NCBI GenBank assembly: GCA_016838885.1
Contig: JAEKNW010000220.1
Span: 1 to 51,591, forward strand
Source: Candidatus Cloacimonadota bacterium
GTDB taxonomy: Bacteria; Cloacimonadota; Cloacimonadia; Cloacimonadales; JAFGVF01
Reading direction: 5' to 3'
Length of the DNA stretch: 51,591 bases
In this document: positions 7,175 through 51,591 of the stretch, in pieces
Layout: each line of letters begins with the position of its first letter
How positions within the stretch are numbered: position 1 is the stretch's first letter
Position numbers and translations under genes: made by a program
Notes under the pieces: generated by a model
Told to the model about the DNA's origin: nothing
The model's database searches: none
What the model saw: only the letters and a program-made list of their open reading frames with translations

Positions 7175-8604
7175 AAATTAATTTAAGGCTTATCATAGTT
7201 GTTTTAATGGGACATATAGCATGTTTAAGTGCTGTAGATTATCAAGAGTTATATGAGAATGGTAAAGTTGATGAGTTAAGAAGTGCAATCTACTCTAAAC
7301 CTCATTTCGATGAAGAAGAGTTACCCCGTGCTGCCTTTTATGAGTCCTTAGTTACCAGTAAGAATTTTGATACTACTTTGCAGGAGTTAATAGAAGGATT
7401 TCCAGAGATTGATACAAAAGATCAGATAAATTTCAAATTAGGTATTATTAACTTCTTTCAGAGAAAATACTCTCAAGCTGAATTTTTTTTCACTAAAGTT
7501 GAAAATAGAGATCAGTTTTATGAGTTTAATTATTGGTTAGCCAGACTTTATTATATGAAGCAAGATCATAAAAATAGTTCTCTATATGCTAGTAAATTTA
7601 TTGAAAAGTGTGAGAAAATAGATCACAAGTATGAGCTTTCTTTCTATATGTTAATCGAAAATAGTATTAGTGATAATAATTTTCAGAAAGCCGTAGTATT
7701 AGCTGAAGAACTTCTCCTGAAGAAAGCTGAAGGCATAAATAAAAAATATCTCTATTATCGAATAGGATATAGCTATGAAAGATTGGAAAATATCTCTTTA
7801 GCAGTAGCAAATTATAAAAAATCCTTTGAGTTGGATCCTTATGGACAGTATGCAGCCTTAACAGAAGAGAGACTATTTGAGCTTCAGAAAAGTAGCAAAC
7901 AGAATTTAGATTTATCCTTTCTTTATACCAAGAATTATCCACCTGCAACAAGCCAAATGCCTGTAGCTCAAAAAACTAGTGTTAAAGAATTCAATATAAC
8001 AGAACTAGTCCGAACAGACACCAGTACGGTATTGAACAAGTTTTTCAATGGTGAGTATAAGCAAGATAATCATTTGGATATTATTCATACTCAGGATAAA
8101 ACTAGCAAAGAAGATTTGAGTTCTCCCAAAGGACCAGAAGAGCTTTTAGTTTCAAATAACCTTGAAATGATTGAAGAGAATATTGAAATCAAAACAAATG
8201 ATTCTTTCAATACAGTAGCCGATAATGATATCATAGGAAATCCTGGTCAAGAAAGTAGGGGTATTAATCCCAATCAATCCCATAGCTCTCAAGAATCTCC
8301 AAATGGTACTTTTTTAGAACGTCCGAAAAATATCGAGAAAGATGGATATGTTTATCTGATGAATAAACCGGTAGGCAACTACTTTGTACAGATTGGTAGA
8401 TTCTCTACTAAGGAATCTGCTATCAATAGAACAAAAGAGTTATTCTTTTTGCAAAAGACTTGGAATATTATCAGAGATGTTAGCAATGAAAAAATTACTT
8501 ATATGATTTGGACACATCCCTATGATACTGCTAATCAAGCAAAAAATGATATTGCATATTTCAAATCAAAAGGCATTGATTGCTTCCTAATCTCAAATGA
8601 GTAA
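7171..8604 (+). CDS. Periplasmic TPR and SPOR-domain protein
   Basis: The 477-residue product has a signal peptide (about 1-21, LIIVVLMGHIACLSA core), a helical middle with tetratricopeptide-like repeats (about 75-235), a polar low-complexity linker (about 255-385) and a C-terminal SPOR domain (about 396-477, starting near GNYFVQIGRFSTKESA). SPOR domains bind peptidoglycan lacking stem peptides at division sites, so an envelope or division role is likely. It overlaps the U32 gene by four bases and mutS by eight, so the three are translationally coupled. The exact function is not known. Confidence 0.8.
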   Translation: MKINLRLIIVVLMGHIACLSAVDYQELYENGKVDELRSAIYSKPHFDEEELPRAAFYESLVTSKNFDTTLQELIEGFPEIDTKDQINFKLGIINFFQRKYSQAEFFFTKVENRDQFYEFNYWLARLYYMKQDHKNSSLYASKFIEKCEKIDHKYELSFYMLIENSISDNNFQKAVVLAEELLLKKAEGINKKYLYYRIGYSYERLENISLAVANYKKSFELDPYGQYAALTEERLFELQKSSKQNLDLSFLYTKNYPPATSQMPVAQKTSVKEFNITELVRTDTSTVLNKFFNGEYKQDNHLDIIHTQDKTSKEDLSSPKGPEELLVSNNLEMIEENIEIKTNDSFNTVADNDIIGNPGQESRGINPNQSHSSQESPNGTFLERPKNIEKDGYVYLMNKPVGNYFVQIGRFSTKESAINRTKELFFLQKTWNIIRDVSNEKITYMIWTHPYDTANQAKNDIAYFKSKGIDCFLISNE

Positions 8605-42498: not shown

Positions 42499-45012
42499 AT
42501 GAACAACAAAGAGGCAAAAGCGCGTATTAAGATTAACAGGCTTTTAGAAGAGAGTGGTTGGTTATTTTTTGATGATAATAATAGGCAAGCAAATATTCAA
42601 TTAGAAACCAACACAAAAATCAGAAAGCAGGATATTGATAATTTTGGTGATGATTTTGAGAGTGTTAAGAATGGTTTTGTAGATTTTCTATTAATGGATA
42701 ATCGCGGATTTCCCTTAGTTGTTTTAGAAGCAAAGAGAGCAGATATCAATCCCTTGGATGCCAAAGAACAGGCGAGGGCTTATGCTCATGGCTTAAATGT
42801 TCGTTTTATCATCTTATCTAATGGAGATATTCATTATTTTTGGGATTTAGAGAGTGGGAATCCCGAGATTATTTTAGAGTTTCCCAGTCAAGAATCACTA
42901 GAGTCTCGTCTCAAGTTCAAGCCTAAGCGCAAGAACTTCTCTGAAATCACAGTAAAAGAAGATTTTATTGCTATCACACAGAAGCCTGATTTTAAAAATG
43001 ACCCTTTATATATAAATGAAGCCACTCGTGCTCAATACCTTTTTGATAACAATATCCGGATTCTCAGACCTTACCAATTAAGTGCAGTGAAGGCTTTACA
43101 GCAGTCAGCTTTAGCAGGCAATGATAGATTTCTTTTTGAAATGGCTACCGGAACGGGTAAAACCTTAGTCTCCGGAGCTATCATAAAATTATTTTTAAGA
43201 AGTGGTAATGCTAAGCGTGTCTTGTTTTTAGTTGATAGAATCGAGTTAGAGAATCAAGCTAAGAAGAGTTTTGACCAATATCTCCAGAATGACTACATCA
43301 CAGTGGTCTATAAGCATAATCGTGATGATTGGAAAAAAGCTGAAATAGTTGTTACTACTATACAGAGTCTTACTTCTAATGATAAGTATAAAAGATTATT
43401 CTCTCCAACTGACTTTGATCTCTTGATAGCTGATGAATCCCACCGGGCTATAGGAGGAAACTCACGAGCTGTTTTTGAATACTTTATTGGCTATAAGTTG
43501 GGATTAACAGCCACTCCAAAAGATTATCTCAAAAATATAGATATCGATAAATTGGCCTATGATGACCCTAAAGCTTGGGAAAAAAGGCAATTATTAGATA
43601 CTTATACAACCTTCGGCTGTAAAACTTCTGAACCAACCTTTAAGTATAGCCTTTTAGATGGAGTAAAAGATAATTATCTGATTAACCCTATTGTTTTAGA
43701 TGCCAGAACTGAGATTACTACTCAGATTCTTTCAGATGAGGGTTATTCGATATTAAAAGAAAATGACCAAGGACTTGAGGAAGAAGAGACCTACTATGCC
43801 CGTGATTTTGAAAGAAGACTATTTTCTGAAAAGACCAACATAGTCTTCTGCAAGGCTTTTATGGATAATGCTTTACGTGACCCAATCAGTGGTGAAATAG
43901 GCAAAAGTATTATCTTCTGTGTAAGTCAAAATCATGCTGCCAAAATTGCTGAGATTTTAAACCGGCTTGCAGATAGATTCTACCCGGGCAAGTATAACTC
44001 CGATTTTGCCTTACAAATTACCTCGCGCATACCCGATGCCCAAACCTATACTATCAATTTTGCCAATAATAACCTAAATGGCTATACCAAGTTCTTAGAA
44101 AGCTATAAATCAAGCAGGACAAGAGTTTGTATAACTGTAGGCATGATGACTACCGGTTATGACTGCCAAGACATTCTAAATATCGCTTTGATGCGTCCTA
44201 TCTTCTCCCCTACTGATTTTATTCAGATTAAGGGAAGGGGAACCCGTAAATTCGATTTTAAGTTCACTGATAGTAATAACACCCAGCATCTTCACCAAAA
44301 GACGAATTTCAAACTCTTTGACTTCTTTGCCAACTGTGAATACTTTGAAGAAAAATATAATTATGATGAAGTGTTAAGTATTCCCAAAATTTCTGAAACT
44401 CTAAAAGCAGATGATAAGTCAGAGCAAAGCACCATAGAAAACCTTGTTATAGACTTCCCTGACCAAATCAAGATATTAAAAACTATCGCTATTGGTAGTG
44501 ATGGGATGAAAGTTGACAGACGTCTCTTTGAGAAAGCTCAAGACTTGATTTCTCAAGATGAGGAGATAAAAGCAGCTATCAATGCTGAAGCTTGGGATAG
44601 AGCCCAAAGAATAGTAAAAGACAGATATGAAGATAAACCTGATCTCTACTTAAATCTGGAGAAAATCAAGAAAATGGAGGGTTTAGACAGACGCCTGACT
44701 TGGCGAGAAGTTTTAGAGCGTATCTTCGGTTTTATCAAGAAGTTTAAAAATGCAGATGAACTTATGAATGACGAAGTTGATAAATTCATCTCAATCCATA
44801 AACCTGAAAGTAAATATGTCCCCTATATCCGCAACTTCATGAAAGCCTATATTGGTGACCCTATGTTCCGTAACGAATTAGATAATAAGAGATTTCCTCA
44901 AACCTACGGAGGTTTTACTTTCGAAGAATATAAAGCCTTAGGCAAAGAGTGGAGAGAGATTCTGCCAAATTATATCAAAGATTATGTCCGACTTAATACA
45001 TTTATGAAATAG
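42499..45012 (+). CDS. hsdR: Type I restriction enzyme, R subunit (HsdR)
   Basis: HsdR is the DNA-translocating, cleaving subunit of type I restriction systems. The 837-residue chain has an N-terminal nuclease domain with D62 and E77-x-K79 (LEAKR), a superfamily 2 helicase with Walker A EMATGTGKT (214-222) and DEAD-like ADESH (311-315), and a C-terminal EcoEI_R-like region (about 640-837). The size matches the shorter EcoEI-type R subunits. The next gene starts nine bases after its stop. It is the first gene of a five-gene same-strand block. Confidence 0.93.
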   Translation: MNNKEAKARIKINRLLEESGWLFFDDNNRQANIQLETNTKIRKQDIDNFGDDFESVKNGFVDFLLMDNRGFPLVVLEAKRADINPLDAKEQARAYAHGLNVRFIILSNGDIHYFWDLESGNPEIILEFPSQESLESRLKFKPKRKNFSEITVKEDFIAITQKPDFKNDPLYINEATRAQYLFDNNIRILRPYQLSAVKALQQSALAGNDRFLFEMATGTGKTLVSGAIIKLFLRSGNAKRVLFLVDRIELENQAKKSFDQYLQNDYITVVYKHNRDDWKKAEIVVTTIQSLTSNDKYKRLFSPTDFDLLIADESHRAIGGNSRAVFEYFIGYKLGLTATPKDYLKNIDIDKLAYDDPKAWEKRQLLDTYTTFGCKTSEPTFKYSLLDGVKDNYLINPIVLDARTEITTQILSDEGYSILKENDQGLEEEETYYARDFERRLFSEKTNIVFCKAFMDNALRDPISGEIGKSIIFCVSQNHAAKIAEILNRLADRFYPGKYNSDFALQITSRIPDAQTYTINFANNNLNGYTKFLESYKSSRTRVCITVGMMTTGYDCQDILNIALMRPIFSPTDFIQIKGRGTRKFDFKFTDSNNTQHLHQKTNFKLFDFFANCEYFEEKYNYDEVLSIPKISETLKADDKSEQSTIENLVIDFPDQIKILKTIAIGSDGMKVDRRLFEKAQDLISQDEEIKAAINAEAWDRAQRIVKDRYEDKPDLYLNLEKIKKMEGLDRRLTWREVLERIFGFIKKFKNADELMNDEVDKFISIHKPESKYVPYIRNFMKAYIGDPMFRNELDNKRFPQTYGGFTFEEYKALGKEWREILPNYIKDYVRLNTFMK

Positions 45013-45021
45013 GAGAAAAAA

Positions 45022-47577
45022 TTGTTAGATAATGAATTTAAAAATAGTATAGATAGTGCCAGACAAATATTAGTTGGAAAAGTACCTGACCCTAAAGCCC
45101 AGATTGAACAAATTACTACTGCAATGATTTATAAATTTATGGATTTTATGGATAGAGAAAATATCGAATTTGGCTTAGAACCTCAATTTTTTGTAGGAGA
45201 TTATCAACACTTCTCCTGGTCCAACCTGCTCGACACTAAACTGTCAGGCCAGCAAAAGCTAGACCTCTATATCCAAGCTATTACCCAACTTCCCCAGTGC
45301 GAACATATCCCTCAACTCTTTAGAGATATCTTCAAGGGAACCTTTGTCCCCTTCCGTGAAGCCCGTACCTTCAACCTCTTCCTCAAAGAAATTGACAAGT
45401 TTAAATATGACAACAGCGAAAACTTAGGAAATGCCTTTGAATACCTCCTCTCTATCTTAGGCTCTCAAGGTGATGCCGGCCAATTCAGAACCCCCCGCCA
45501 TATCATCGATTTTATCGTGTCTGCTGTTGACCCCCAAAAAGATGATACTATTCTCGATCCTGCCTGCGGAACTGCCGGTTTCCTCATCTCTGCCTATAAA
45601 CATATTATAAAAATAAATTCAAAAAACTTCAATCATGATAATGATTCTATCATTGCTGAAGGTTCTACTGCCTACGAAACCGTTATCGATACCTCTGAAT
45701 ATTATATAGGCGACTTGATGACCCCTATCCAAAAAAGAAATCTCCTAGCCAATGTTACCGGCTACGATATCTCCCCCGATATGGTCAAACTTGCCCTGGT
45801 TAACCTCTACTTGCACGGTTTTAAACAACCCAAAATCTATGAATATGACACCCTTAGCGATGATAAACGCTGGGATGATGACTTCGATGTTATCCTCGCC
45901 AACCCTCCCTTTATGTCTCCTAAAGGAGGGATTACCCCCCACAAACGCTTTTCTATCCAGGCTAATCGAGCAGAAGTCCTCTTTGTTGATTACATAGCAG
46001 AACACCTAAGACCGGGTGGAAGAGCCGGGATCATCGTCCCGGAAGGCATAATCTTCCAAGCTAGCAATGCCTACAAAAACTTGCGTAAAAACTTAGTTGA
46101 GAATTGGGGACTCTACGCTGTGGTAAGCCTCCCCAGTGGTGTATTTCAGCCCTATAGCGGTGTGAAAACTTCTATCCTCTTTTTAGATAAATACTTGGCT
46201 AAACAATCTCCTGACATCCTCTTCCTTAAAATCGAAAACGATGGCTATGACTTAGGAGCTCAACGGAGAAAAATTGATAAGAATGATTTGCCTAAGGCCC
46301 TGAAAGCCTTCAAAGAATGGAAATCAAGCCAATCCCTCCTCGATGATAATATTGCTATGACTGTCCCCAAAGCTAAAATTGCCCAAGACGGGGACTATAA
46401 TCTCACTGCTGAAAGATATAAAGAAGCTATTGATTATTCTAATGTTAAATGGGATATGGTGGAGTTGGGGGAGGTGTGTGAAACTACCTCTGGTGGTACA
46501 CCATTAAAAGCTAAACAAGAGTATTATGAAAATGGTAAAATTCCCTGGCTAAGGAGTGGAGAAGTTGCACAAGGTGAGATATTACATTCTGAGTTATATA
46601 TTACTGAAGAAGGATTAAGAAAGTCTTCCGCTAAATTGTTACCACCAAATACAGTTCTTATAGCCATGTATGGAGCCACAGCTGGACAAGTAGGTTTATT
46701 AAAGTTTGAATCTGCTACAAATCAAGCTATATGTGGTATTCTTCCAAATGAAGGTATTGTTCCTAAATTTTTATTCCACCTTCTTTATTCAATGAAAGTT
46801 GATATCATTAGATTAGCTGGAGGTGGTGCACAGCCAAATATTTCGCAAAAAATCATCAAAAACCTCAAAATCCCTCTCCCCCCTCTCCAAGTCCAAGAAG
46901 AGATTGTTGCAGAAATTGAACAATATCAGAAAGTGATAGATGGAGCTAAGCAGGTTGTGGAAAACTATAAACCCCAAATTGATATTGATCCTGATTGGGA
47001 AAAGGTGGAATTGGGGGAGGTTTGTGATAAGATTACTGATGGATCTCATTTTTCTCCAACAACTATCAATAAAGGATATCCATATGTTACTGTTAAAGAT
47101 ATTAATAACGGAAAAGTTGATCTAATAAACTGTAAGAAAATTTCTTATGAAAGTTATATCGAACTTAAAAAAAATGGATGTAGACCCAATAAAAATGATG
47201 TTTTGTTTTCAAAAGATGGTACAGTTGGTAAAACATTCTATGTTAATTTTGATAAAGAATGGGTTGTTCTCTCATCTCTTGCTATTATAACACCGAAGCC
47301 AGAAAATATTATACCAAAATATTTATATCATATTTTATCAACTGATTATTTTAAAAATAAGGCCATATATAGGAAAACAGGTCTAGCCATTAAAAGAATA
47401 GTTCTTAAAACTTTAAAAACAATTCTTATCCCCCTCCCTCCCCTTTCAGTCCAAGAAGAAATAGTTGCCCGAATAGAAGAAGAGCAAAAATATGTAGATG
47501 GGTGTAAGAAGTTAATAGAGATTTATGAGCAAAAGATTAAGGATAGAATAGGAAAGGTTTGGGGGATAAATAAATAA
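45022..47577 (+). CDS. hsdM-hsdS: Fused type I methyltransferase and specificity protein (HsdM-HsdS)
   Basis: One 851-residue chain carries both the N6-adenine methyltransferase (SAM motif DPACGTAGF at 179-187, catalytic NPPF at 294-297) and, from about 478, two target-recognition domains. Each domain starts W-x-x-VELGEVC (478-486 and 659-668) and ends in a similar helical stretch after IPLPPL-x-VQEEIVA (617-630; again near the end). Type I systems usually make M and S separately. Translation starts at TTG 45022 with GGAG upstream. Base composition differs sharply between the methyltransferase and recognition parts. No frameshift is seen. Confidence 0.9.
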   Translation: MLDNEFKNSIDSARQILVGKVPDPKAQIEQITTAMIYKFMDFMDRENIEFGLEPQFFVGDYQHFSWSNLLDTKLSGQQKLDLYIQAITQLPQCEHIPQLFRDIFKGTFVPFREARTFNLFLKEIDKFKYDNSENLGNAFEYLLSILGSQGDAGQFRTPRHIIDFIVSAVDPQKDDTILDPACGTAGFLISAYKHIIKINSKNFNHDNDSIIAEGSTAYETVIDTSEYYIGDLMTPIQKRNLLANVTGYDISPDMVKLALVNLYLHGFKQPKIYEYDTLSDDKRWDDDFDVILANPPFMSPKGGITPHKRFSIQANRAEVLFVDYIAEHLRPGGRAGIIVPEGIIFQASNAYKNLRKNLVENWGLYAVVSLPSGVFQPYSGVKTSILFLDKYLAKQSPDILFLKIENDGYDLGAQRRKIDKNDLPKALKAFKEWKSSQSLLDDNIAMTVPKAKIAQDGDYNLTAERYKEAIDYSNVKWDMVELGEVCETTSGGTPLKAKQEYYENGKIPWLRSGEVAQGEILHSELYITEEGLRKSSAKLLPPNTVLIAMYGATAGQVGLLKFESATNQAICGILPNEGIVPKFLFHLLYSMKVDIIRLAGGGAQPNISQKIIKNLKIPLPPLQVQEEIVAEIEQYQKVIDGAKQVVENYKPQIDIDPDWEKVELGEVCDKITDGSHFSPTTINKGYPYVTVKDINNGKVDLINCKKISYESYIELKKNGCRPNKNDVLFSKDGTVGKTFYVNFDKEWVVLSSLAIITPKPENIIPKYLYHILSTDYFKNKAIYRKTGLAIKRIVLKTLKTILIPLPPLSVQEEIVARIEEEQKYVDGCKKLIEIYEQKIKDRIGKVWGINK

Positions 47578-47599: not shown

Positions 47600-49087
47600 A
47601 TGGACAATATCAGAAATTATCATCTTGGATTGCAACATCTAAAAGCACAGCCTTTGGAAGAAGAACTGGTTAAACATTTATCAAAGCCTGACGAAATTAG
47701 ATCAATATACCAAAAAGATAGAGATCGAATAATGTATGGTAAAGCGTTCAGAAGACTTGCGGGAAAGACACAAGTGTTTTTAGCTGGACATGATGATTAT
47801 AATAGAACAAGACTAACTCATACCCTTGAAGTTTCTCAAATAGCAAAAACAATTTCTGGTTTTTTAGGGTTAGATGTAGATTTAACTGAGGCTATTGCTT
47901 CAGGACATGATATTGGTCATGCTCCATTCGGTCATGTGGGTGAAAGAGTAATAAATCATTTTAGTAATGGATGTGATAATTATAAAGATTCAATGAGAAG
48001 AACTGATTATTACGACTTAAAAAATTGGATGGGTTTTAAACATAATTGGCAATCAGTAAGAATTGCTGAGTCCTTAGCAAGGCATAAAGAGAATTATGGT
48101 CTAAAACTTTCTAAACAGACCTTATATGGTATTCTTAATCACACTATACTTGATTATAAAAGTTGTAATTACTTTTGTAATAGTCATTGTAATTATCGCA
48201 AAAGAGGAGACTCCACTGAATGTATCAAAGAAAACTTATGTCTAGACTTTTACATCACAAATTATTCAGATATAAATAACTGTTTGTATTTTACTGTCGA
48301 ATCAATAATTGTTTCAATTTCTGATGAGATTGCGCAGATTCATCATGATTTAGAAGATGGCTTGCGTAATAATATCTTTTCCTTAGAATCATTGTTAGAT
48401 GAAATTAAGTCAATAATTAGTTTTGATAATTATACAAAAATCAAAACGATAACAAACAAAAAGGAAACTACTAATAGAATTGAAGATATAATAACAATAC
48501 TATCATCAGATCTAATTAATTATTTTGTTAGTAATACAATAATTAAATTGGCTACCTATTTTCAAGATTTTTCATATTCTGATATAAGCATAGAATCAAG
48601 AGTAATGAAAATTCGTGATGAAACAAAGTTTAGTTTTATATTTAAAAAATGTGAGAACATTCAAAAATTCATGTATAAAAGAATTCTTAATTCTCATATA
48701 GCTCAAGTAATGGATGGTCGTGCAGAATATCTTTTAAGGAGATTATTTAAAGCATATTTATCTAATCCACAACAATTACCAGATAATACTTTGTTAGCTT
48801 TTAAAAGGAATATTGATTTAGAATATGAAGATAAATCTCAACATAATAAGAAATCAATAGAAAAAATAGAAAATTATAAAGAAATTGGTCATTTAAGAGT
48901 TAATTTAGATAAACTCCTAAATGGTATAGAAAATGAAGCTGTCGATGGCGTGTTTTATGATTTCTCAAAGAATCGAGCTATCTTACTAAGAACCATTTGT
49001 GATTATGTTTCTGGTATGACCGACAGAAGAGCAACTTCCGAATATCAAAGACTATATGGTATAGAAAAAGATATCAGAGAACTTTGA
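47600..49087 (+). CDS. dgt: dGTPase (HD-domain deoxyguanosine triphosphate triphosphohydrolase) with Cys-rich segment
   Basis: The 495-residue protein is an HD-type dNTP triphosphohydrolase. Candidate metal ligands are H74 (RLTHTLEV), H103-D104 (SGHDIGHAPFGH) and D242 (SDEIAQIHHDLED). FRRLAGKTQV (50-59) is the family nucleotide loop. dGTPases of this group can protect against phages by emptying the dGTP pool. An unusual segment at about 186-216 has five Cys (189, 193, 197, 208, 214) and H196, suggesting bound zinc or a redox switch. RBS AAGGAG precedes the ATG, 22 bases after the fused M-S gene. Confidence 0.9.
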   Translation: MDNIRNYHLGLQHLKAQPLEEELVKHLSKPDEIRSIYQKDRDRIMYGKAFRRLAGKTQVFLAGHDDYNRTRLTHTLEVSQIAKTISGFLGLDVDLTEAIASGHDIGHAPFGHVGERVINHFSNGCDNYKDSMRRTDYYDLKNWMGFKHNWQSVRIAESLARHKENYGLKLSKQTLYGILNHTILDYKSCNYFCNSHCNYRKRGDSTECIKENLCLDFYITNYSDINNCLYFTVESIIVSISDEIAQIHHDLEDGLRNNIFSLESLLDEIKSIISFDNYTKIKTITNKKETTNRIEDIITILSSDLINYFVSNTIIKLATYFQDFSYSDISIESRVMKIRDETKFSFIFKKCENIQKFMYKRILNSHIAQVMDGRAEYLLRRLFKAYLSNPQQLPDNTLLAFKRNIDLEYEDKSQHNKKSIEKIENYKEIGHLRVNLDKLLNGIENEAVDGVFYDFSKNRAILLRTICDYVSGMTDRRATSEYQRLYGIEKDIREL

Positions 49088-49115
49088 TGCGAAAATTAAT
49101 CAATAGGGCAAGAAT

Positions 49116-49427
49116 ATGGTAAAAATTGAATTCATAGAGATATATTCCTCATTAGTTGATGAAAGTCTTATGCCATTTTTAGACGAAGGAGAAGAAAATC
49201 TTAACTTTGATTTCTCATTGTTTGAAGAATTTATTTCCAGAATTGATGTTAGTAAAAAGGGGAAATTAGATGTAGGTGAAAACACCAGAGATTTAGTTGA
49301 ATATTTAACTGGAGACGATTTAAGACCACCACCTAGGAGTCTTTGTATCAAGTTTTCAATTAATAGCAAAATTCATGAAATTAGCATTCCTTATGCAGAT
49401 TCTACTTATATTTATGTGTATTCATAA
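49116..49427 (+). CDS. Small acidic protein of unknown function in defence island
   Basis: This 103-residue product is rich in Asp and Glu, especially in the first 70 residues, and has a DDLRPPPR segment (67-74) followed by a beta-rich tail. I recognise no family. It lies 28 bases after the dgt stop, and 84 bases separate it from the Shedu-like gene on the same strand. AGGGC lies upstream of the ATG. Its position suggests a partner, regulator or immunity role, but there is no direct evidence. Confidence 0.6.
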   Translation: MVKIEFIEIYSSLVDESLMPFLDEGEENLNFDFSLFEEFISRIDVSKKGKLDVGENTRDLVEYLTGDDLRPPPRSLCIKFSINSKIHEISIPYADSTYIYVYS

Positions 49428-49511
49428 TAAACTTGTTTTTTTCATTATATCTATACTATAAATACTTTTTATCAGTACATTTAAATGAATTAATTTGACT
49501 AGGAGAGAATA

Positions 49512-50711
49512 ATGCAATTAGAGTTTAACAGTTCGTCTGAAGATATAGTTCTAGATTATACCCCTACAAATCAACCAGATTGGCTAGAAGATAAATTATT
49601 AAATAATGAGCCTTTTTCGTTAAAATATACTTTTCATTTATCTAAATCTGATCATATCCCTAATGCTGATGATGACGGAAGTTATTTATTTATGATTGGT
49701 AAAATTGATGGGCAGTATTTTAGAATCAATAAACACGTTCTTAACACACAATATGATGTATTGATCCACAAATCCTGTAATCTAGAATTGAAATATTTTG
49801 TTGTTAATAATCGATATTCTGTTTTCAAAAGACTAGATGAATTAGCAAATCAGCAAATAATAATCAGCGATAGTGAAGAAAATGCAATCCCAATCTTGGA
49901 ATTTCGTAAGATAATTAAGTCTTTACCTACTTCACGAGAGCTAAGACTATACGTGGAATCTAGAATGACTAATGTGTTAAGTCAATATTTAGAGGGAGTT
50001 AAAGATTCAGGAAAAGCCTATGAACAATATCGCTCCAAACGAGAGATAGGAGGAATGAATAATCAGTTTAAAGCAATTCATGACTATGAATTATTTAAAT
50101 ATACATCACTGTTAGAAACACTTCAACACATGCTAAGCAATTTTAGTAACTATAATGAAAGACAATGGCAAAAATGCATCTTAGAAATAATATTGCTCCT
50201 GTACCCAAAGTATATTGAATGCATACCCAGCGTTAAAATTAAAGATTATTATTCTAACCAACAGAAAGCAACAGACAGAGAAATTGATTTAATGTTAATT
50301 GATTCAAATGGATACATCGATGTAATTGAAATCAAGAAACCGGAAAGTAATTATATATTATCTACTGGAAAATACAGAGATAATTTTACCCCCAAAAGAG
50401 AACTTTCTGGAACTATAATGCAAGTTGAGAAGTATTTATTTCATTTAATGAAATGGGGTTCCGAGGGTGAGAAAAAGTTAACTAAAAAATATAAAAGTCA
50501 AATCCCTTTTGGTATCCAACTAAAAATATCAAATCCAAAAGCTGTTGTTATTTTAGGACGAGACAATGACCTTGATAAGAGTCAGCTATTTGATTTTGAA
50601 ATTATAAAACGCAAATATACTAACATTATGGATATTATTACCTACGATGATTTAATCAGAAGATTGGAAAAACTCATCGTTAAATTTTCACCAAGAAATA
50701 ATAATGATTAA
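49512..50711 (+). CDS. sduA: Shedu-like defence nuclease (SduA, DUF4263)
   Basis: The 399-residue protein has an N-terminal domain (about 1-200) without clear matches and a C-terminal PD-(D/E)xK nuclease. Nuclease signs are EIDLMLID (258-265, D259), VIEIKKP (271-277; E273, K275), Q304, then VILGRDND (346-353) and IITYDDLIRRLEKL (375-388), a pattern I associate with the DUF4263 domain of Shedu. Shedu proteins act as single-gene anti-phage systems. RBS AGGAGAG is strong. No own promoter is evident, although 84 bases separate it from the preceding gene. Confidence 0.8.
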   Translation: MQLEFNSSSEDIVLDYTPTNQPDWLEDKLLNNEPFSLKYTFHLSKSDHIPNADDDGSYLFMIGKIDGQYFRINKHVLNTQYDVLIHKSCNLELKYFVVNNRYSVFKRLDELANQQIIISDSEENAIPILEFRKIIKSLPTSRELRLYVESRMTNVLSQYLEGVKDSGKAYEQYRSKREIGGMNNQFKAIHDYELFKYTSLLETLQHMLSNFSNYNERQWQKCILEIILLLYPKYIECIPSVKIKDYYSNQQKATDREIDLMLIDSNGYIDVIEIKKPESNYILSTGKYRDNFTPKRELSGTIMQVEKYLFHLMKWGSEGEKKLTKKYKSQIPFGIQLKISNPKAVVILGRDNDLDKSQLFDFEIIKRKYTNIMDIITYDDLIRRLEKLIVKFSPRNNND

Positions 50712-51442: not shown

Positions 51443-51591
51443 TCTCTCTATCTCTCTATCCCTCTATCCCTCTATCTCTCTATCTCTCTATCTCTCTATC
51501 TCTCTATCTCTCTATCTCTCTATCTCTCTATCTCTCTATCCCTCTATCTCTCTATCTCTCTATCTCTCTATCTCTCTATCCCTCTATCTCT
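51443..51591. repeat. 8-bp satellite array (TCTCTATC)n at right end
   Basis: About 18.5 units of TCTCTATC run to the final base. Four units have the CCC variant (near 51460, 51468, 51540 and 51580). The unit is the reverse complement of the left-end repeat GAGAGATA. The array reaches the edge of the window, so its full length is unknown. Confidence 0.97.

Follow-up and report, generated by a model that had tools for sequence, protein, structure and literature searches.

The window, the stretch of 51,591 nucleotides analysed here, belongs to a genome that its relatives mark as a Cloacimonadota MAG. ORF calling places hsdR, a fused hsdMS, a dGTPase gene, a small gene that we call orf103 and a Shedu gene in one row on the + strand, with gaps of 22 bases between hsdMS and the dGTPase gene, 28 between the latter and orf103, and 84 between orf103 and the Shedu gene:

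42499..45012, + strand: HsdR, type I restriction subunit, 837 aa, with HSDR_N nuclease and ResIII/SF2 helicase
45022..47577, + strand: fused HsdM-HsdS, 851 aa from a TTG start, with N6_Mtase ahead of two specificity domains
47440..47577, + strand: 3' end of hsdMS, where the HsdS C-terminal repeat marks the boundary of the cargo slot
47600..49087, + strand: accessory dGTPase, 495 aa, first cargo gene (PADLOC dGTPase, 6.8e-74)
49116..49427, + strand: orf103, small acidic protein, 103 aa, pI 4.4
49512..50711, + strand: SduA, EcSduA-type Shedu nuclease, 399 aa, last cargo gene (PADLOC SduA, 2.2e-144)

A sequence-only reading of this DNA had described three consecutive same-strand genes with gaps of 28 and 84 bases, encoding a dGTPase, an unrecognised 103-residue protein and a Shedu-like nuclease, behind a type I restriction system. 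The ORF calls give identical coordinates, strand and spacing, profile searches bear out the gene identities, and the system upstream proves to be HsdR followed by a single fused HsdM-HsdS protein; the same reading was also right that both enzymes are plausible defences in an operon-like order. HsdR (Pfam ResIII 3.5e-39, HSDR_N 2.4e-6; PADLOC REase_I 2e-56) and HsdMS (Pfam N6_Mtase 2e-55; Methylase_S 9e-57 in two stretches) bring the HsdR, HsdM and HsdS functions of type I restriction-modification (R-M) together in one operon, HsdM and HsdS being fused. The dGTPase, orf103 and Shedu genes have a G+C content of 0.286-0.294, compared with 0.36-0.377 for the hsd genes. Promoter matches exceed those in shuffled sequence modestly, and no terminator-like site was seen on the + strand from hsdMS to the end of sduA; neither was counted for or against any reading. 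At its end, some 730 bases beyond sduA, the contig carries 18.6 copies of an 8-base tandem repeat, TCTCTCTA (window 51443-51591).

Judged by its sequence, the product of the last gene is an EcSduA-type Shedu, predicted to be a DNA-end-dependent nickase with phage protection. Its SduA_C PD-(D/E)XK domain is well above the Pfam threshold (9e-35, 120.6 bits against a cut-off of 27), residues D259, E273 and K275 of the PD-(D/E)XK motif are invariant, and the EcSduA N-terminal half is present, with residues 3-389 aligning to 5-406 of E. coli Shedu 8ps4 (1.3e-88). The match to type I Shedu (EcSduA) therefore covers the full length, including the N-terminal half and the nuclease residues, although EcSduA is described as a single-gene system, whereas sduA of the window comes last in an R-M operon. 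Other settings were seen for Shedu as well: inside a type I operon of another lineage in the order HsdM-SduA-HsdS-HsdR (G341, L054:7077-8246, - strand), near an HsdM-like gene (G115, L051), and, as an EcSduA-type protein on a Methylomonas plasmid, in a BREX locus between PglX/PDDEXK and PglZ (L035:4941-6167, + strand).

The dGTPase passes TIGR01353 (226.5 bits against a cut-off of 152.35) and keeps its catalytic residues, namely the HD ligands H74, H103, D104 and D242 together with the H112/E115 pair. It fails the NCBIfam model for anti-phage dGTPases, NF041026, with 168.5 bits against a curated cut-off of 400; the housekeeping dgt of the host scores 113 bits on this model. Nor is it part of a Clover system, there being no CloB nucleotidyltransferase and its neighbours being HsdMS, orf103 (which has no family) and SduA. 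Because of the failed cut-off and the missing CloB, we file the protein solely as a dGTPase family member, and regard it as probably defensive by context. A separate dgt lies elsewhere in the host genome, on contig C286, which rules out the window gene as the host's sole dgt and makes it an accessory copy; in the order, dgt is present in 90 of 107 genomes, often followed by a prfB-like gene. The window type was found in none of the other Cloacimonadota genomes searched, its nearest full-length relatives are about 31-35% identical, and scans of viral contigs with the dGTPase, Shedu and orf103 as queries returned no relatives. Foldseek matched it to a Thermus dNTPase, CloA and SpdGTPase. It resembles SpdGTPase and Clover CloA in its HD dNTPase fold and residues, but differs from them in lying far under the NF041026 cut-off, in lacking CloB, and in a Cys-rich insertion of its own. 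Nearly all of 66 relatives lack this insertion (48167-48241, approximately residues 190-214), which could possibly be a metal site; in an AlphaFold2 (AF2) model, made from an alignment that left out two plasmid rows, the core is confident and the insertion disordered.

Operons of the window's HsdR/fused-HsdMS type occur in 21 of the 107 genomes of the order, the HsdR relatives in the 20 others being mostly 52-57% identical. Fifteen loci, the window included, are readable in that they have sequence beyond hsdMS, and many contigs end at or near such loci, hiding some cargo. The same-strand genes on the 3' side match PADLOC defence models, for known or candidate families, at 13 of these 15 loci, compared with 0 of 10 control flanking genes (Fisher p = 2e-5; the control is small and hand-picked). 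The cargo is listed below, where PDC and HEC labels are themselves candidate defence families:

Gabija: G007, G011
Kiwa: G031; G090 (KwaA after the small protein)
OLD: G096
HEC-04: G030
PDC-M30A: G043
CBASS cyclase and 2TM effector: G066
TIR: G085, G019
DUF4297: G052
Small protein, gene of no family and PDC-S18: G026
Family-less protein, homologous to the G026 gene: G058
Empty 3' slot, with SoFic between hsdR and hsdMS instead: G008
dGTPase-orf103-Shedu: the window

Behind operons whose HsdR proteins share 81-89% identity, the cargo differs. Between other loci, DNA similarity stops close to the hsdMS stop codon, and the HsdS C-terminal residues are conserved across loci. The G+C content of the cargo is below that of the hsd genes at all 15 loci, and the spacing is tight or overlapping at most of them (-53 to +124 bases). 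Behind this operon lies an exchangeable 3' defence slot with turnover across Cloacimonadota. Since the cargo varies, DNA similarity breaks off at the hsdMS stop, cargo G+C is lower and 13 of 15 loci give defence matches, the trio can be assigned to this slot, and it gives the impression of interchangeable cargo, not of a new and dedicated system of three parts. The arrangement falls within type I R-M-embedded defence, being variable between relatives, with a position 3' of hsdMS and not between hsd genes. The R-M operon, which the sequence-only reading had treated as a mere neighbour, is the constant partner, and the dGTPase and Shedu are the variable occupants.

Two further observations concern individual slots. 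Proteins of 267 and 256 aa, 59% identical to each other, recur as cargo in G026 (L042:8411-9214, + strand) and G058 (L161:423-1193, - strand); they have no convincing Pfam or PADLOC family and are a candidate new defence gene. In G066 (L170:4778-9802), hsdR contains an in-frame TAG and hsdMS is broken into two ORFs that overlap, while the CBASS cargo downstream is apparently intact; some operons, this one for example, may have decayed.

We consider it likely that the locus represents a type I R-M operon whose exchangeable 3' cargo slot is here occupied by a dGTPase, orf103 and an EcSduA-type Shedu, and we propose that the hsd, Shedu, dGTPase and orf103 genes act as layers. HsdR would cut incoming unmethylated DNA, and Shedu would attack linear DNA ends, including those made by HsdR; EcSduA senses and binds DNA ends and places its nicks at a fixed distance from the end (PMC12904381), and for that reason we propose that the ends left by type I cleavage are natural Shedu substrates. 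The dGTPase would lower dGTP, so that surviving phage genomes could be neither replicated nor repaired, dGTP depletion being an established defence (PMC12265719). The orf103 protein may modulate the Hsd complex or couple it to whichever effector lies downstream, for which PrrC in EcoprrI is a precedent as an effector under the control of an R-M complex (PMC12707154).

A serious if less probable alternative is passive accretion of a defence island, in which the 3' end of hsdMS does no more than tolerate recombination and the cargo is functionally unlinked to restriction. The cargo mechanisms are highly diverse, as this would predict, and the homology at the hsdMS 3' end could serve as a recombination anchor. 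TgvAB, which is embedded in another type I locus, moreover protects largely alone, without HsdR (PMC11411939), so embedding need not imply mechanistic coupling. The tight or overlapping spacing at most loci, and the recurrence of a small protein between R-M genes and cargo, nevertheless suggest more than chance.

Of the parts of the locus, the small protein is the new one. It matched no family in Pfam, PADLOC, NCBIfam or PHROGs, the last of which excluded it as a phage protein, but its relatives, at 22-47% identity, have invariant residues in common, and so we take orf103 to be a real gene. Relatives were found in five other genomes among 125 of the phylum searched; among approximately 260 genomes outside the phylum there was no convincing one, the weak matches there (E ~0.006-0.009) being judged chance. 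A contig scan with the orf103 alignment, motif-based and of low sensitivity, found two loci, apparently the contigs already known from G003 and G085. The relatives are situated as follows:

G003: after an EcoR124-like HsdR, before PDC-M18A/B
G090: after HsdR-HsdMS, before KwaA
G026: after HsdR-HsdMS, before a gene of no family and a PDC-S18 fragment
G085: before HsdM-HsdS-HsdR, at a contig edge
G051: a shortened orphan

Five of the six family members, counting that of the window, adjoin or closely follow type I R-M genes, which belong to three HsdR lineages; in the window, the dGTPase gene separates hsdMS from orf103. Three members carry other cargo (Kiwa, PDC-M18 or PDC-S18). The family is thus tied to type I R-M, and not to dGTPase, to Shedu or to any one cargo. 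Its members are acidic (pI 4.1-5.2), and the AF2 model of orf103 has a mixed alpha/beta fold (pLDDT 82.8) for which a search of PDB and viral libraries gave nothing below E = 0.001; the best PDB match, KwaB (E = 0.16), was unsupported by hhalign and was rejected as a fold relative. An in-frame TGA near the N-terminus of the G026 small protein (L042, ~8073-8118) may reflect a late start or decay.

From these associations, orf103 is predicted to be an R-M-linked modulator or adaptor. A stronger form of this idea makes it a generic adaptor through which type I R-M controls whichever effector sits behind it, be it dGTPase/Shedu, Kiwa, PDC-M18 or PDC-S18, and we regard that as improbable. If true, it would generalise the EcoprrI-PrrC arrangement to interchangeable effectors, with an effector being released or activated, for example, when a phage inhibits restriction. 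Among the 15 readable loci of the window operon type, just 3 contain orf103, so that the slot functions in its absence.

The sequence-only reading had instead proposed that the dGTPase, orf103 and Shedu work together, with the small protein as regulator of the two enzymes. As a dedicated composite this would consist of a dGTPase and a Shedu as co-effectors and orf103 as their regulator, independent of R-M. The three genes lie on the same strand with short gaps, and the G+C content that they share, lower than that of the hsd genes, would allow joint arrival; low cargo G+C is, however, general at these R-M loci, so we rejected it as proof that the trio arrived together. Conserved co-occurrence in other genomes, the check that the reading had proposed, was sought in 19 Shedu neighbourhoods besides the window. 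The five on plasmids, one of them within the BREX locus, had no annotated dGTPase, and the 14 in other genomes, two of which (L054 and L051) place Shedu in or near a type I-like R-M locus, had no match to the window dGTPase. At the eight nearest dGTPase loci, there were no homologues of Shedu, orf103 or hsd. With the pairing in 0 of 19 Shedu neighbourhoods and 0 of 8 dGTPase loci, the dGTPase-Shedu pair is no recurrent unit within the searchable data, and cooperation of the three genes found no support. The link of orf103 relatives to type I R-M, beside different cargo, likewise tells against a regulator of dGTPase and Shedu. We found no paper in the open-access literature that joins Shedu, dGTPase and type I restriction. 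A dedicated composite is, in our view, very unlikely. That orf103 specifically holds the dGTPase or Shedu in check, whether as antitoxin or restraint, in the way that CloB does with CloA in Clover, is highly improbable: it adjoins both genes, and unrestrained nucleotide-depleting dGTPases can be toxic, as CloA is without CloB (PMC12265719), but orf103 has no nucleotidyltransferase family, by which it was also rejected as a CloB, and its relatives occur with Kiwa, PDC-M18 and PDC-S18 with no dGTPase or EcSduA-type Shedu adjoining.

For a type I R-M operon with an exchangeable cargo slot there are several known counterparts. Defences embedded in type I loci are already known, and include PrrC (EcoprrI), TgvAB (V. 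cholerae VPI-2) and DarTG2 (EPEC), with further cases in Payne et al. 2024 and in PAGI-1 hotspot 7 of Pseudomonas (PMC11411939, PMC12255303, PMC12629846, PMC12707154). Like the window, these loci have additional defence genes that sit within or alongside a type I R-M operon and vary between strains; in the window type, unlike these, the main slot follows a fused hsdMS on its 3' side, is filled at nearly every readable locus, holds many unrelated families, and includes a small undescribed protein at three loci. RptR is another small protein with a genetic link to type I R-M that carries embedded cargo (PMC12255303). We rejected orf103 as an RptR, since RptR is all-helical and encoded first, whereas orf103 is acidic, modelled as mixed alpha/beta and encoded fourth, its family lying behind R-M genes with cargo or adjoining hsdM. 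BREX also combines a core restriction machinery with varied auxiliary or backup nucleases, Shedu among them (PMC12839542), but the core in the window is type I R-M.

What appears to be new is the systematic 3' slot of the fused-hsdMS operon in Cloacimonadota, together with the orf103 family. A guess about one trio thereby becomes a general pattern, in which a single type of type I R-M operon nearly always carries another anti-phage module in its 3' slot. The slot is a hunting ground for new defence genes, such as the 256/267-aa cargo of G058 and G026, and the orf103 family makes testable the long-standing question of whether restriction systems control the defences embedded in them or simply lie next to them.
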